33,237 bases of DNA from Gammaproteobacteria bacterium (GTDB taxonomy: Bacteria; Pseudomonadota; Gammaproteobacteria; Arenicellales; CAJQKF01), in assembly GCA_030429125.1 (NCBI GenBank), contig JAUIDF010000008.1:1-33237 (forward strand). Direction: 5' to 3'. The notes beneath the pieces are model-generated. The model was not told the DNA's origin. It did not search any database and saw only the letters and a list, made by a program, of their open reading frames with translations. A program made the translations under genes and the position numbers. Numbering within the stretch: position 1 is the stretch's first letter; every line of letters starts with the position of its first letter. Positions 20,823-26,914 of the stretch are shown here, in pieces.

Positions 20823-20850
20823 GACTTTTGCTTCTCCCAAAAAGTGGAAT

Positions 20851-21767: not shown

Positions 21768-21793
21768 GAGTATAAAAGGGATAATTTATACTC
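21768..21793 (+). promoter_or_regulatory. Inverted repeat over the brnTA promoter, probable BrnA operator
   Basis: Perfect 9-bp arms GAGTATAAA (21768-21776) and TTTATACTC (21785-21793) with an 8-nt spacer, immediately upstream of the brnT frame. It overlaps GATAAT (21780-21785), a possible -10, with TTGCAA (21759-21764) as a possible -35 at a short 15-nt spacing. BrnA antitoxins repress their own promoters, so an operator role is plausible. The arm GAGTATA also resembles the edge of the repeated element found elsewhere in the island. Confidence 0.45.
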
Positions 21794-21796
21794 ACG

Positions 21797-22057
21797 ATAG
21801 TTTTCGAGTACGGCGATGGTAAGAGCGTAGCCAATCTAGAAAAGCATGGAATCGACTTCCTGGCCGCTCAGGAACTCTGGCATGACCCAGGTCTTCTGAA
21901 GACCTAGGCCAAGTCCGATGATGAACCTCGATTTTTGTTCATCGGTCGGATCGGGCACAAGCATTGGTCTGCCGTTGTCACTTACCGATTTAAAGGAGTT
22001 CGTCTCATTTCCGTGACACGTTCCCGGAAGCAAGAGGTTTAGCTTTATGAAGGCTAG
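21797..22057 (+). pseudogene. brnT: Inactivated BrnT-type toxin gene
   Basis: One uninterrupted frame of 86 codons reads as a BrnT RNase toxin: VFEYGDGKSVANLEKHGIDFLAAQ, then LWHDPGLL, DDEPRFLFIGRIGHKHWSAV and RLISVTRSRKQEV, ending LYEG. The expected start ATG is ATA (21797). In-frame TAG codons interrupt it at 21905-21907 and 22040-22042. No frameshift is present. BrnT toxins cleave RNA and arrest growth, and are held in check by BrnA. With no start codon and two stops, functional toxin is unlikely. The frame's end overlaps the brnA start, the normal brnTA arrangement. Confidence 0.85.
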
Positions 22058-22316
22058 TAATTTTGACGATAAAGTCGATAAGGACAACAAAGATATTATC
22101 GACGATCTTGATCTATCCACTGCACGTCGAGCTAATCAGCAACAGAAACGCATCAATGTGGATTTCCCTGCCTGGGTAGTAGAATCCCTGGATCGCGAGG
22201 CAGCGCGTATAGGTGTAACTCGGCAGTCGATTATCAAGGTCTGGCTGGTTGAGCGCCTGAAAGCCGAAGCTGCTCAAAAGCCGCTCAATGGTGACGCCGC
22301 AAGCGACGCACATTAG
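22047..22316 (+). CDS. brnA: BrnA-type antitoxin
   Basis: An 89-residue ribbon-helix-helix antitoxin. The N-terminal MKASNFDDKVDKDNKDIIDDLDL is the acidic toxin-contacting part. RINVDFPAWVVESLDREAARIGVTRQSIIKVWLVERL (about 32-68) is the CopG/RHH DNA-binding fold typical of BrnA, and looks intact. The start overlaps the 3' end of the brnT frame. The last 12 or so residues (PLNGDAASDAH) are encoded by the attC site into which the gene runs, so the C-terminus is a cassette-derived extension. With its toxin dead, it could still repress its promoter or neutralise a BrnT encoded elsewhere. Confidence 0.88.
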   Translation: MKASNFDDKVDKDNKDIIDDLDLSTARRANQQQKRINVDFPAWVVESLDREAARIGVTRQSIIKVWLVERLKAEAAQKPLNGDAASDAH

Positions 22317-22329
22317 CTGAGCGTTAGGC
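22272..22329 (+). repeat. Complete short attC site (58 bp) behind brnA
   Basis: It ends in the canonical R' site GTTAGGC (22323-22329), preceded by L' TGAGC (22318-22322). L' pairs perfectly with L'' GCTCA (22283-22287). R'' is GCTCAAA (22272-22278), one mismatch from RYYYAAC. The length matches the classical 59-base elements. The left two-thirds lies inside the end of brnA. Confidence 0.7.
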
Positions 22330-22341
22330 GTCATCTCGACG

Positions 22342-22734
22342 ATGTCGAAAATTCGGCCGCAATATCATTTCAGGCAAACTGAAAATGGGATTGATGCATG
22401 GTACGTTGAGCGGCTTATTCAACTCGGCAAGAACCTTCCTCTTCGACACATTGATCCGACCACGATCGCGGAACTTCAGGAGAATCACTGGTACTCTCAC
22501 GACAACGGTGTTCCCACACCTCAAAGTATCATTGAACACGTTAGACTGATAAACGAGGCTGATTTGTCGTTTCCGGTTATCCTCGACGCAGCGGGAAGGG
22601 TGATGGACGGTATGCATCGCATCTGTAAGGCGATCTTGATCGGGAAATCAACTGTCCCGGCGTTGCAGTTTGAAGTAGATCCGAAACCGGATTTTTCGGA
22701 TTGTGATCCAGATAAGCTGCCATATGACGCCTAA
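22342..22734 (+). CDS. ParB/sulfiredoxin-like cassette protein (DGxHR motif)
   Basis: A 130-residue protein beginning 12 nt after the attC R' site and ending in TAA within the next core site GCCTAAC, so it is a bona fide cassette gene. Residues about 40-110 resemble a ParB-like N-terminal fold: an HIDPTTI strand, SIIEHVRLINEADLSFPVIL and the signature VMDGMHRICKAIL, where the DGxHR-type motif is the nucleotide/phosphate-binding site in ParB and sulfiredoxin relatives. I recall close relatives in Vibrio-type cassette arrays, without known function. No partner DNA-binding domain is present. No clear ribosome site precedes the ATG. Confidence 0.75.
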   Translation: MSKIRPQYHFRQTENGIDAWYVERLIQLGKNLPLRHIDPTTIAELQENHWYSHDNGVPTPQSIIEHVRLINEADLSFPVILDAAGRVMDGMHRICKAILIGKSTVPALQFEVDPKPDFSDCDPDKLPYDA

Positions 22735-22735
22735 C
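22729..22735 (+). repeat. attC R'' core site GCCTAAC of the ParB-like cassette
   Basis: It fits RYYYAAC and embeds the TAA stop of the preceding gene; the following ACGGCGCTACAGACGG is a plausible L'' region. The best right-hand candidate is GTTGAGA (22832-22838), with one mismatch to GTTRRRY, which would give an attC of about 110 bp. Its partner arm is uncertain. Confidence 0.6.
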
Positions 22736-23137
22736 ACGGCGCTACAGACGGACAAAGGCAAGCTGTCATGCTTTTTGGCGTACCCAAACGTCACATCAGC
22801 CCGATTTTAACGCTGAGATTGGTCGTTCCACGTTGTTGAGATTCGAAATGAACAATGGGCACTTCCAGTCCGCTGTGTCAAACGGAAACCCTTACAAACA
22901 AGATCTGATTAGAAGTTGGTGGGCTGAAGATCAGCGCCAGAAAGGGGAATTGGTGTGGGTATTTCGGGGATCGTATACAAGACCCACACGTCTAGAGAGA
23001 CAGAGCGCGGTGCAGGAGAACGGCCGTTTGCGTGCTCGAAAGTCAATTGAATATACGGCCGCCGAAACGAGGACACCCCAGGAGGCGGCACATAATCCGG
23101 ACGTCCAAAAACCTTCTGGAAAGCGAACACGAGGAAT
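22736..23137. other. attC remnant and repeat-element stretch between cassettes
   Basis: It contains the rest of the ParB-cassette attC and a frame from ATG 22849 of unclear identity that runs into repeat-element copy 1 (22961-22990). A spacer follows up to the GIY-YIG gene. I recognise no gene here; the short frame before copy 1 may be the front of a truncated cassette gene. Confidence 0.4.
22961..22990 (+). repeat. Repeat-element copy 1 (diverged)
   Basis: ATTTCGGGGATCGTATAC followed by AAGACCCACACG. It differs from the consensus TTTCGGGGACAGTATAC at two positions and continues with the conserved flank seen in the other copies (AAGAC/GAAAC then YCRCRC). Confidence 0.75.
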
Positions 23138-23989
23138 ATGCACTCAAGAATTAAAGTGGAATCGGTGTTTCCAGAATTCGAGTGGCAATCTGCCAAGTTT
23201 CACATTGCCCAGAGATCTGGTGAGATGCAGCCGATCGATGCATTCACCGAGAGCTTTAGTGTCTGGCAGAATGAATGGAACGGAGCCTACCATTCGAATC
23301 ATTGCTGGAACAGACCATTTGTTTTCTCGATCATCGAATTACCAACTCAGCCGAACAAATGGCTTTTTGGTGGAGTATTTCGCGTACTTTCTCACCGAAA
23401 AGTAATGCGAAACGGAAAACGAATGTCATTCTACAAGGTCGACCTTCATTCGGCCGGAGAGACGTTGATCGGCCGGTTGATCATCAGCTGGAGAAAGGAT
23501 GCGAGAGCCAAGGGCCGCATACCAGATACAGTTCTCCCAAATATGTCCGTCGCCGAGCTGCTTCCGGAGCTCTATACTGGAATTGATTTTCCTGGCTACG
23601 ATAACATCAACCTGCCTTTCTCTACCCTTGAACAATTGTGGCGCGATGTAAAGCCCGACTGGTATTCCGCTCTCGCCAACTGCCAAGGCATCTACTTGAT
23701 CACTGACACCAAGACTGGTCGGCGATACGTTGGATCTGCCTACGGCGAGAATGGCATTTGGTCTAGATGGGGAGACTATTTTGATACCGGCGGGCACGGA
23801 AACAATAAACTTCTCAAGGAACTGATCAGCACCCACAAAGACCCTATCGGGTATGCCAGAAGGAATTTGCAGCTTTGCTTACTGGAACACATTTCTAGTC
23901 GAGCAAATGAGCAATACGTGATCATGCGGGAATCCTTCTGGAAGGAGGCTCTCTACACGAGGGGGGCGTTTGGCTTGAATGCAAACTGA
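23138..23989 (+). CDS. GIY-YIG nuclease family protein
   Basis: A 283-residue protein. The C-terminal third carries a GIY-YIG domain: GIYLITDTKTGRRYVGSAYG near residues 183-202, Arg in WSRWGDYF near 209, and RESFWKEALYTRGAFGLNAN at the end, where the acidic residue (E near 264 or 268) and the final Asn region match a widespread uncharacterised GIY-YIG subgroup. The N-terminal 175 residues form a separate domain of unknown role, perhaps DNA recognition. GIY-YIG enzymes cut DNA with one metal ion; catalysis here is inferred. GAGGA just precedes the ATG. It is in a cassette-like position: a perfect R'' site ATTTAAC follows 92 nt after the stop. Confidence 0.82.
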   Translation: MHSRIKVESVFPEFEWQSAKFHIAQRSGEMQPIDAFTESFSVWQNEWNGAYHSNHCWNRPFVFSIIELPTQPNKWLFGGVFRVLSHRKVMRNGKRMSFYKVDLHSAGETLIGRLIISWRKDARAKGRIPDTVLPNMSVAELLPELYTGIDFPGYDNINLPFSTLEQLWRDVKPDWYSALANCQGIYLITDTKTGRRYVGSAYGENGIWSRWGDYFDTGGHGNNKLLKELISTHKDPIGYARRNLQLCLLEHISSRANEQYVIMRESFWKEALYTRGAFGLNAN

Positions 23990-24080
23990 TGATCTGAAGG
24001 TTGATACCAATACCTCGACGGCTCCAACGCCGAGTACGGGCCAACACTCCCACGCCGAGCCTCGTACCGGTTTGATCAAT

Positions 24081-24087
24081 ATTTAAC
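24081..24087 (+). repeat. attC R'' core site ATTTAAC behind the GIY-YIG gene
   Basis: It matches RYYYAAC exactly and is followed by ACGAGCGCTCGG, similar to the ACGGCGCT after the ParB-cassette core. Repeat-element copy 2 begins 27 nt downstream. GTTGAGC (24235-24241) fits GTTRRRY and could be the right end, giving a site of about 160 bp enlarged by the inserted element. Confidence 0.5.
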
Positions 24088-24114
24088 ACGAGCGCTCGGA
24101 AAGCGGTGCTTCGG

Positions 24115-24143
24115 GTTTCGGGGACAGTATATGAAACCCGCAC
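24115..24143 (+). repeat. Repeat-element copy 2
   Basis: GTTTCGGGGACAGTATAT followed by GAAACCCGCAC. A degraded inverted end, GAGTATACTAAC, lies about 60-70 bp downstream (24198-24209), so the full element may be about 95 bp. Confidence 0.75.
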
Positions 24144-24310
24144 TGTCAAAGAGAAAGTGTAACGGCAGGTTTGTATGCTAGAGAATTTGGTTCTCGAATG
24201 AGTATACTAACGCAGAAATTGCGCGGAAACTACGTTGAGCTGTGACCTTGTACAAAAGGCTGCATATGACTGTTCGCCGGCCAATAAGCCGGAACTGCAT
24301 TGGCAGTCCC

Positions 24311-24358
24311 GTCCCAAAATGGACCAAGCTTTTTTGGGACAGTATACAAAATTCGCGC
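24311..24358 (+). repeat. Repeat-element copy 3 with an attached hairpin
   Basis: The element edge reads TTTTTGGGACAGTATAC then AAAATTCGCGC (24331-24358), one of the most diverged copies. Its start forms one arm of a perfect 9-bp inverted repeat GTCCCAAAA (24311-24319) / TTTTGGGAC (24332-24340) with a 12-nt loop. A degraded inverted end GAGTATATCGTCCCCGC follows at 24419-24435. Confidence 0.65.
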
Positions 24359-24471
24359 GGCGCGCCACGGCAGAGCAAGTCGTTGAGCAACGGCCGTTAA
24401 CAAACGCTGCATTTCATTGAGTATATCGTCCCCGCAACGTTCCGCATCACAAGTTCGTTATTCGCCCTGGA

Positions 24472-24478
24472 GTTAGAT
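24472..24478 (+). repeat. attC R' core site GTTAGAT before the LysE cassette
   Basis: It fits GTTRRRY exactly and ends at the base before the LysE GTG start. The GGAG ribosome site (24469-24472) overlaps it. The left part of this attC is not clear: CGTTAACAAACGCTG near 24395 is a candidate but pairs poorly with the right arm. Confidence 0.65.
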
Positions 24479-25096
24479 GTGAGTCCAATCGAGATACTGA
24501 TTCTGTTTACCGCGATGGCAACCTTGGCGCTGGTACCCAGCACCAGCGTCGCACTGGTGGTTGCTCGCTCTTCCACCGCCGGGTTCGCCAACGGCAGCGC
24601 GGTCGCGGCCGGGATCGTGGTAGGCGACCTTGTCTTTGTCTTCCTGGCCGTGTTTGGAATGGCGGCACTGGCCGAGGCGATGGGCAGCCTGTTCCTGGTT
24701 TTGAGGTACTTGGCGGGTGCGTACCTGATCTGGTTCGGCATAGGCCTCATGACATCCAGGCCTACATTGCGGGTAGAGGAGCATGGCCAGTCAGCTTCGA
24801 AGTTGTCGGCGAGCTTCCTCTCCGGGCTGCTCCTTACCCTCGGCGACGTCAAGGCGATTTTCTTCTACGCGAGCCTGTTCCCGGCTTTCGTCGATCTGGC
24901 AACCCTCCAGGCCTCGGATATCGCGATCATTTCCCTGTTGACCGTGGTCGCGGTCGGCGGCGTCAAGTTGGGCTATGCATATTTCGCACGAGTGGCTGTT
25001 TCCTATGCCAGGAACCTAAAGGCAGGACGAGCCGTCAAGGTTACGGCTGGCGGCTTCATGGTTGGCGCGGGAGCCTACCTTGTCGCCAAGGCCTAA
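24479..25096 (+). CDS. LysE family amino-acid exporter in a cassette
   Basis: A 205-residue inner-membrane protein with about six helices. The N-terminal ALVPSTSVALVVARSSTAGFANGSAVAAGIVVGD is the LysE/RhtB signature region (usually PGP; here PSTS). The central GLLLTLGDVKAIFFYASLFPAFVD matches the NPK-type motif, with Gly-Asp for Asn-Pro. These carriers export amino acids or related metabolites by proton antiport. The GTG start directly follows the attC site GTTAGAT, with GGAG six bases upstream, and the TAA stop lies inside GCCTAAC. It is therefore a complete cassette. Its base composition is closer to the host than the other cassettes. Confidence 0.88.
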   Translation: MSPIEILILFTAMATLALVPSTSVALVVARSSTAGFANGSAVAAGIVVGDLVFVFLAVFGMAALAEAMGSLFLVLRYLAGAYLIWFGIGLMTSRPTLRVEEHGQSASKLSASFLSGLLLTLGDVKAIFFYASLFPAFVDLATLQASDIAIISLLTVVAVGGVKLGYAYFARVAVSYARNLKAGRAVKVTAGGFMVGAGAYLVAKA

Positions 25097-25097
25097 C
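25091..25097 (+). repeat. attC R'' core site GCCTAAC behind the LysE gene
   Basis: It embeds the TAA stop of the LysE gene. Repeat-element copy 4 starts 9 nt later, and no GTTRRRY partner is found in the next 150 bp, so the element seems to have interrupted or replaced the right half of this attC. Confidence 0.65.
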
Positions 25098-25106
25098 GAT
25101 GCAGGT

Positions 25107-25135
25107 ATTTCGGGGACAGTATACGAAACTCACAC
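25107..25135 (+). repeat. Repeat-element copy 4
   Basis: ATTTCGGGGACAGTATAC followed by GAAACTCACAC; the core matches the consensus perfectly. It sits directly behind the LysE attC core. No matching inverted end is seen before the next gene. Confidence 0.85.
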
Positions 25136-25253
25136 AACCGATGAGTCAGCTCGAGCCCCCACGCCGTGATGGACGAGATGCCTGGATCTCGGCTGACCAA
25201 CCCGCGGGGAAACTTCTATCTGGTTACCACGCGTGAATACCACGTGATCCTCA

Positions 25254-25658
25254 ATGGATAATTATATTGACACGGTTCGCTCAACGGGCTTTGACACTGG
25301 CCATCGGCGACCGCGGTCATGGTGGTGGTGCGTATCCGTCGTTGCGACTGGCGTCTTCTTGGGTAATCTCATCGCCTTCGCGGCCTATCAGTTGTACCTG
25401 GAGTGGGAATTCCGGAGGTTCGTAATCGCTTTCGGGCAGGCATTCACGGAACAGGCGGAGAGTTCGCGCGAAGCCATGGAACAGCTCGCGAAGGAGAACG
25501 CAGCCCGCGTTCAAAGCCAGCGAGACAGGTCAGCCACCATGGCGCAACTGCGAAGAACTTGTGACTATTGGACGAAAGTTATTCGCACCGAGAATACCTC
25601 GTTGAATCGAGGGTACCAACGCATGGCCTGCGCTCGTGTTCGGGATTTCCTCGATTGA
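25254..25658 (+). CDS. Small single-helix membrane protein (134 aa)
   Basis: A 134-residue protein with one membrane segment at about residues 27-48 (VSVVATGVFLGNLIAFAAYQLYL). A charged coiled-coil-like stretch follows (AFTEQAESSREAMEQLAKENAARVQSQRD), and then a C-terminal region with two Cys, RTCDYWTKVIRTEN and RMACARVRDFL. I recall similar hypothetical proteins in accessory DNA of other proteobacteria, without known function. No good ribosome site precedes the ATG. The next membrane-protein gene is 115 bp downstream on the same strand, and the two may act together. Confidence 0.6.
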   Translation: MDNYIDTVRSTGFDTGHRRPRSWWWCVSVVATGVFLGNLIAFAAYQLYLEWEFRRFVIAFGQAFTEQAESSREAMEQLAKENAARVQSQRDRSATMAQLRRTCDYWTKVIRTENTSLNRGYQRMACARVRDFLD

Positions 25659-25773
25659 CGTCGATGAACAGCTTGACGATTGCGCTTCTCGACGAGTCGT
25701 TGGATTGCCTGATTGACTCCCTCGTTCCAGCTTCGAGGCCAATTGACAACTTTGTTTACGCATTCTCGGAAAG

Positions 25774-26409
25774 ATGAACACCACGAATCTTTTTGTCGAG
25801 CTCATTGTAATCGGCGTCGGAGTTTCGTTCTGGCTCCTGCTTGTCGCTTGTTCGGTGTTCGGTAGTTCTTGGTTGCCTGACAATGACGGAGTGATTCTCG
25901 TCGCCGCGATTCCTTCCCTGGCTGTCGTATACGCCCTCGGAATTATCTGGGACAGGATTTCAGATTGGATCTTTCAAAAGTTCTGGACAGACGACCTCCG
26001 AAGCAGACATTTCGACAGCCTGGGAGAGTATTACAATGCCCGTCGAACGCTTCTTACACAATCCGGTGCGCTATCGGAGCTGCTTGAGTATGGCCGGAGT
26101 CGACTCAGAATCTGCAGAGGCTGGACTCTGAACGCCTTGATGAGTGCAATCGCGCTGAATATTTTTACTTGGAGTGATCATTCGCCTGTATTTGAGATTG
26201 ACCGTACCCGCTTGTCGATATTCGGCTCCGTCTTTCTCATTCTTTTGGCGGGTGGTTCATGGTTTGCCTGGCGGAGTCTTGCGGCGTCCGAATACCGAAA
26301 AATTTCTGAACAGTCGGCCTGGCTCGAATCCAGAAATAGTACGCACGGAATTTCGGGGACAGTATACGAAACTCGCGCCGGCAGTGAGGCAGGACGCGGC
26401 GTTGCGTGA
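25774..26409 (+). CDS. Multi-helix membrane protein of unknown function
   Basis: A 211-residue protein with about four membrane helices: two in the first 70 residues (LFVELIVIGVGVSFWLLLVACSVFG and a second ending in VVYALGIIWDRI) and two at about 118-170. Between them lies a cytoplasmic-type segment with LGEYYNARRTLLTQSGALSELLEYGRSRLRICRGW, which I recall in hypothetical membrane proteins from many bacteria. No function is known to me. The last 20 or so residues (GISGTVYETRAG...) are encoded by repeat-element copy 5, so the native C-terminus has been replaced or extended. GAAAG precedes the ATG. Confidence 0.65.
   Translation: MNTTNLFVELIVIGVGVSFWLLLVACSVFGSSWLPDNDGVILVAAIPSLAVVYALGIIWDRISDWIFQKFWTDDLRSRHFDSLGEYYNARRTLLTQSGALSELLEYGRSRLRICRGWTLNALMSAIALNIFTWSDHSPVFEIDRTRLSIFGSVFLILLAGGSWFAWRSLAASEYRKISEQSAWLESRNSTHGISGTVYETRAGSEAGRGVA
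26350..26377 (+). repeat. Repeat-element copy 5, inside the 3' end of a coding gene
   Basis: ATTTCGGGGACAGTATAC followed by GAAACTCGCG, a perfect core. It is translated as ISGTVYETR at the C-terminus of the membrane protein 25774-26409. Confidence 0.85.
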
Positions 26410-26493
26410 CGGCTATCAGGAAGCTCGCTATTTCGTTTTCGTAAACGCTCCCAATCCACTGACCCGGCAGTTTCACGATGCGAAGGCAAGGTA

Positions 26494-26530
26494 TTAACGC
26501 TACACTGACGTGTCGACAAGCGCGTTAAAC
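26494..26530 (+). repeat. Short attC-like hairpin ending in GTTAAAC
   Basis: Perfect 7-bp arms TTAACGC (26494-26500) and GCGTTAA (26522-26528) enclose an inner perfect hairpin ACAC-TGAC-GTGT (26502-26513). The right arm overlaps GTTAAAC (26524-26530), which fits GTTRRRY; the left contains TATTAAC, one mismatch from RYYYAAC. At about 40 bp it is shorter than a normal attC and may be a deleted one. Confidence 0.45.
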
Positions 26531-26635
26531 CCCAGGACAGGAGACGTTCGCCTTGATCCCTTGGGCACGCGATACGAAAGACGATCCCGACACCACAGAG
26601 GGGTGGGTGTCATGAGCCGGACAAGTATCGTTTAA

Positions 26636-26773
26636 CGAAGCTGGGAGGCCGTGACGGCTGGCGATTTCGATGCCTTGGTGGCGGACTACGTGGAAGACAT
26701 GACCCACATCATGCCGGGGCAGGCGGATGCCCTTGTAAGATCGAAGTGCCTTTCGCGGCGCGCTGGACGGGAT
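26636..26773 (+). pseudogene. Truncated SnoaL/DUF4440-like gene fragment
   Basis: The frame reads RSWEAVTAGDFDALVADYVEDMTHIMPGQADALV, matching the first helix and strand of SnoaL-like (NTF2-fold, ketosteroid-isomerase type) proteins. An in-frame TAA (26633-26635) lies just before it. After about 45 codons the frame enters repeat-element copy 6 and ends at 26863, so the rest of the roughly 120-residue domain is missing. It is a remnant truncated at or near the element insertion. Confidence 0.6.
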
Positions 26774-26914
26774 ATTTCGGGGACAGTATACAAGACTCGC
26801 ACCGTTAACGAGGACGGCCAAGATATTTGGCGGTGGCTATCAAAGGGCTCGATGCTGAGTTAAGTATACTGTCCCCGAAACTCCAGTGTAGTTAACTATA
26901 CTGTCCCCGAAATT
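26774..26914. mobile_element. MITE-like element with terminal inverted repeats (copy 6)
   Basis: The left end ATTTCGGGGACAGTATAC (26774-26791) is matched by two inverted right ends, GTATACTGTCCCCGAAA (26864-26880) and TATACTGTCCCCGAAAT (26897-26913). Using the first, the terminal repeat TTTCGGGGACAGTATAC is 17 bp and perfect and the element is about 107 bp. There is no transposase ORF, so it is non-autonomous. From memory, similar GGGGACAGTATACT motifs occur beside IS200-type/REP-associated tyrosine transposases in gammaproteobacteria; I cannot check this here. Confidence 0.7.

Follow-up and report, generated by a model that had tools for sequence, protein, structure and literature searches.

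What are the short repeats that crowd into 4 kb of one bacterial contig, and what could have moved them? The stretch analysed here (the window; contig C72, 33,237 nt) belongs to a 3.69-Mb assembly of 388 contigs that is 76% complete. An earlier note had described six direct copies and two clear inverted ends of a MITE-like repeat, with none noticed elsewhere in the window. A mismatch scan with the 17-mer TTTCGGGGACAGTATAC (≤3 mismatches) returned nine sites in the window, all within 22962-26912, against a shuffle mean of 0.02, and 0 of 100 shuffles reached nine. The direct copies and both inverted ends were confirmed, and a third inverted end was added:

22962, 24116, 24331, 25108, 26351 and 26775, + strand: direct 17-bp cores
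26864 and 26896, - strand: inverted 17-bp cores
24421, - strand: inverted end with 3 mismatches

Two right ends with four mismatches, at 23051 and 24202, complete two more copies. Within the 33-kb window there were no further sites with ≤3 mismatches, as the earlier note had it, but this did not extend to the genome, where 19 core sites with ≤2 mismatches were found, eleven of them spread over four other contigs (C25, C133, C220 and C326); a reversed control pattern had no match in the whole assembly. The repeat family is real and far above chance. An even genome-wide spread without element boundaries is contradicted by the eight of 19 sites that lie within 4 kb of the 3.69 Mb; a simple binomial for this crowding gives ~1e-19, computed with 18 sites and for element copies that are non-independent events.

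The island around the repeats

Past an aldo/keto reductase gene, near 20824, the same-genus genome G001 no longer aligned. GC content over the following 6 kb was 0.50-0.53, compared to 0.67 on the left and 0.63 on the right. Genes in this island encode a CopG-like antitoxin, a LysE family exporter and small products without family. The elements crowd in a foreign-looking, variable segment; such AT-richer DNA may tolerate insertions, or the copies may have arrived together with the island.

Several other features were observed in this segment. Between copies 1 and 2, a GIY-YIG-like gene (23138-23989) matched the PADLOC UzuA single-gene defence models (E 6.9e-52). At 21780-22316, a reading frame that we take to be BrnT-like is broken by an in-frame stop, and an intact CopG/BrnA-like antitoxin gene lies at 22047-22316. 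A 21-nt inverted repeat (GCGTTAGGCGTCAT / ATGACGCCTAAC) surrounds a small gene without known family at 22314-22744, resembling attC core sites.

Structure of the island elements

The six direct copies and the ~106 bp downstream of each aligned as one family of 103-107 bp, all in one orientation, along the genes:

22962..23067, + strand: copy 1, 106 bp; left end 22962-22978 (2 mismatches), right end 23051-23067 (4 mismatches)
24116..24218, + strand: copy 2, 103 bp; left end 24116-24132, right end 24202-24218 (4 mismatches)
24331..24437, + strand: copy 3, 107 bp; left end 24331-24347 (2 mismatches), right end 24421-24437 (3 mismatches)
25108..25213, + strand: copy 4; perfect left end 25108-25124, right end unrecognisable, end coordinate from the alignment
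26351..26456, + strand: copy 5; perfect left end 26351-26367, right end decayed, end coordinate from the alignment
26775..26880, + strand: copy 6, 106 bp; best preserved, both 17-bp ends perfect
26896-26912, - strand: extra right end standing alone outside copy 6, with 1 mismatch, 32 bp past that copy's own right end

The approximate sequence of the left end is RTTTCGGGGACAGTATACRARACYCRCRC, the left type including ..TATACRAAACTC; in the best copy, the inverted right end reads GTTTCGGGGACAGTATACTTAACTC. After the core, the tail RARACYCRCRC was present at left ends only (TTC in one copy), whereas right ends continue with TTAACTC or decayed forms, and the conserved extension beyond the core described earlier therefore holds for left ends and not for right ends. 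An inverted right end was recognisable at the expected distance in four of the six copies (chance ~0.002) and was unclear or decayed in those at 25108 and 26351. All 15 pairs of internal sequences scored above shuffles (z 1.7 to 6.9). As kinship in the central 35 bp was detected in only some copy pairs, the bodies have decayed much further than the ends, and the island copies are now mostly decayed. Copy 6 folds end to end (-29 kcal/mol, z -7.4), and the other five folded not much better than shuffles.

A perfect-ended element does exist, as had been claimed. The pair originally proposed (26774 with 26897-26913), however, passes over the genuine right end. Internal homology and length place the element at 26775-26880, which leaves 26896-26912 as a further right end outside it. 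On C25 and in related genomes, too, direct ends occur doubled, at a spacing of 22 to 43 bp.

Concerning neighbouring genes, the left end of copy 4 starts 11 bp past the LysE stop codon, copy 5 supplies the last codons of ORF 25774-26409, and copy 6 lies within ORF 26651-26863, again supplying the last codons; the positions of copies 5 and 6 inside ORFs are as expected of insertions. If orientations were free, six copies would share one by chance with a two-sided probability of ~0.03, and transcription, replication direction (through a lagging-strand effect, for example) or shared history could be the cause. Tandem duplication of the island was rejected as the source of the copies, a repeat finder having detected nothing common beyond ~46 nt per copy.

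A Y1 transposase between the same ends

The earlier note had suggested mobilisation in trans by an IS200/REP-associated tyrosine transposase, and a search of the genome for a Y1 gene between the same ends found one. This IS200-like gene (220 aa, on C25) was the only Y1_Tnp gene detected. Its product matched Y1_Tnp (PF01797) at 51.9 bits, had E. coli TnpAREP (4er8) as its closest PDB relative by sequence, and carried the motifs NHVH, LWQER and YIERNP. It scored below the cut-offs of the REP_Tyr_transpos (71.6 vs 80 bits) and IS200 (21.4 vs 55 bits) models, and its C-terminal third, where a helix-turn-helix was sought, had no Pfam match even at E up to 5. TTTCGGGGACAGTATACTTA flanks the gene as an inverted pair, and beyond one of the two ends lies another copy:

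Contig C25, 24781/24824 (+ strand) and 25592 (- strand): ends of the transposase unit; core tails right-type (TTA) on both sides

As both ends are of the right type, the resident transposase may not be cognate to the island subfamily; no transposase gene with a left-type end was found. The transposase unit directly abuts the start of uvrA (L016:6250-6350), where the ATG start of G001 is apparently replaced by a TTG beside the inverted repeat.

Other element forms and element-free neighbours

On C133 and C326, the same end forms palindromes of 55 bp, perfect or nearly so, of which the one on C133 folds perfectly (z -14); C25 also holds a 283-bp unit in which one end is left-type and the other right-type. 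On C326 (L019:2108-2240), the palindromic unit is accompanied by several extra tandem TTTCGGGGACAG fragments and sits at the stop codon of a YkgJ-like gene, whose G001 counterpart has a few more codons. With a sequence model built from the six island copies, which match it by construction, no further full-length copy was detected in this genome. The transposase, the ends that match it, the palindromic derivatives and the separate asymmetric subfamily all occur in this one genome.

No exact 13-bp core was found in G001, and its orthologues of uvrA, the YkgJ-like gene, LysE and NapC are element-free on the corresponding side. For uvrA, homology picks up directly beside ...CCCCGAAAT, and for LysE it breaks off within a few bases of the left end. 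Element absence at these orthologues is compatible with insertion, the boundaries being one-sided at uvrA, LysE and YkgJ and a precise two-sided empty site being seen at no locus.

Distribution, pairing and specificity in related genomes

The exact sequence GGGGACAGTATAC was present in 19 of the 100 genomes searched (own included), with a patchy distribution and 157 copies in G042 alone. In the loci fetched from this and related genomes, 44 of the 56 neighbouring core pairs ≤420 bp apart pointed inward, 12 were direct and none was outward, a rate biased upward because many loci had been chosen around pairs already close. A later G042 sample added two outward pairs ~340-350 bp apart. The absence of outward pairs within 130 bp is unexplained by this sampling bias. 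As inward pairs predominated and outward ones were lacking in the loci fetched, the elements are units with boundaries, which bears out the earlier description of MITE-like miniature elements.

The 106-bp body is less widely recognisable: in 59 relatives the sequence model gave marginal matches only (E 0.03-0.05). Four of these spanned the whole or almost the whole element; they lie in G057, G037 and G046, all carriers of the core motif. The left-type end was found in only two Geobacter-type contigs of an 84,980-genome collection, and no Y1 gene was recognised by eye among the ORFs listed beside these two sites. A phage or plasmid carrier was dropped, as viral contigs had no exact match to the two end patterns and plasmids none to a 156-bp stretch.

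The G042 loci (L074-L093, L229-L248) showed further forms. A 27-bp inverted repeat, TTAAACCGGGGACAGTATACTTTTTAA, is common to many units. The spacers of a short class are equal in length (~60 bp core to core) but mostly unrelated in sequence, and longer units often contain a REP-like palindrome of the GTAGGAGCGG type.

With the C25 transposase as query, matches were obtained in 27 of the 100 genomes. Where ends could be assigned near these genes by simple pattern matching, GGGGACA occurred with the closer, LWQ-bearing relatives and GGGGTCA with the more distant, LWE-bearing ones (L114-L143); several transposase loci had no GGGGWCA-type end in the flank searched. E. coli TnpAREP uses the corresponding Trp-Gln region to read its guide sequence (PMC6006769). 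The correspondence between LWQ or LWE and the fifth base of the end is a testable lead on specificity and not a result, as the two sets are also two clades.

Alternative explanations

The arrangement of the island, with all six copies oriented like the genes and mostly one gene between successive copies, resembles an integron-like cassette array in which genes alternate with ~106-bp attC-like recombination sites, and GTTAGGC (22321) and GCCTAAC (22730) flank one small gene in the attC manner. This reading was judged extremely unlikely. It was largely refuted by the integrase search, which returned no integron integrase above the cut-off and only XerC/D-like matches in the 76% complete assembly, and by the LysE comparison: the attC-like letters beside LysE belong to its own stop codon and start region, and the same-genus orthologue (83% identical) is located elsewhere without such letters. 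Moreover, no consistent GTTRRRY/RYYYAAC core sites were seen by eye at the element ends, and the same ends bracket a Y1 transposase. This bracketing also weighs against the elements being non-mobile RNA or DNA hairpins (terminators, mRNA stabilisers or protein-binding sites) kept by selection downstream of genes. Several copies do lie shortly 3' of stop codons (25108 in the window, and on C326), the C133 palindrome folds perfectly, and the 27-bp repeats of G042 are conserved around equal-length unrelated spacers. Against a hairpin function, five of the six island copies fold not much above shuffles, two lie within ORFs, and orthologous genes in G001 have no adjacent elements; a hairpin role was considered very improbable.

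A third reading, that of classical REP/REPIN or IS200/IS605 elements whose ends form GTAG-type hairpins, is in line with the Y1_Tnp domain of the associated enzyme and its sequence proximity to TnpAREP. The fold of a single end is negligible (z -0.46), the GTAG foot is absent from the sequence, and the transposase falls under the cut-offs of both family models, which makes this assignment very improbable as well. The earlier proposal of an IS200/REP-associated transposase was partly supported: an IS200-like Y1 gene does lie between the same ends, but the IS200/REP label is unsupported in the strict sense because a single end forms no hairpin.

Proposed mechanism

The repeats are most likely the ends of ~106-bp non-autonomous MITE-like elements with terminal inverted repeats, of the TIRYT/TIRtron class, mobilised by a Y1 HUH transposase. 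Such an enzyme would recognise a terminal inverted repeat containing GGGGACAGTATAC and would move or copy the DNA bounded by two such repeats, presumably acting in trans on the island elements. The island subfamily may have been spread by the resident transposase, by another that has since disappeared, or by one encoded in the quarter of the genome that the assembly lacks. Several points count against this explanation: the asymmetric island family differs from the ends bracketing the resident transposase, which are both right-type; some transposase relatives had no end of this kind in the flank searched; G042 has its many cores, yet the only Y1 gene detected there is without matching ends; and the empty sites seen were one-sided.

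The six co-oriented elements, with their unlike left and right ends, might also have arisen other than by independent insertions: they could form an array mobilised locally, with a Y1 transposase acting on ends of the same orientation to shift gene-sized segments. If so, the elements would be cassette borders in a defence/toxin-antitoxin island, but this extension was given next to no credence.

Comparison with known systems

A REPIN is a dispersed, non-autonomous unit made of two short inverted ends and associated with a Y1 transposase (RAYT). The island elements likewise have two short inverted ends, form a non-autonomous unit and are linked to a Y1 transposase; they differ in the lack of a GTAG foot and of a hairpin in the single end. 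A literature search for the exact motif found no paper.

TIRYTs/TIRtrons are Y1 transposases flanked by terminal inverted repeats, many with GGGGWSAS, and their repeat families are moderately abundant (Di Nocera et al. 2013; PMC3733652). Most TIRYTs fall in TnpAY1 subclass 2.1, characterised by NHVH and Y..NP motifs without REP hairpins (Quentin et al. 2018; PMC6006769) and stated to equal group 1 of Bertels (PMC6006769). The C25 protein resembles this subclass in its NHVH, LWQ and Y..NP motifs, its C-terminal extension, its length of ~220 aa and the lack of REP hairpins, but the helix-turn-helix reported at the C-terminus of the subclass was undetected by Pfam.

The island elements and the C25 unit share with TIRYTs/TIRtrons the GGGGWSAS terminal repeats (here GGGGACAG, decayed in some island ends), a Y1 HUH transposase gene lying between repeats of the same kind, a moderate abundance (here the 19 core sites), an occurrence of TIR units as singles, dimers and groups, and ends unrelated to GTAG REPs. 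In the island copies, by contrast, the sequence continues differently after left and right ends, and the body they share was not found near the resident transposase; a further difference is the six co-oriented copies within 4 kb, which do not appear in the part of the published description available (PMC3733652). Judged by these sequence features, the island elements belong to this described, little-studied class of small repeats and were probably moved by a Y1 transposase. TIRYT-type Y1 transposases are common and hardly studied, their substrate being known only as a short consensus from 2013.
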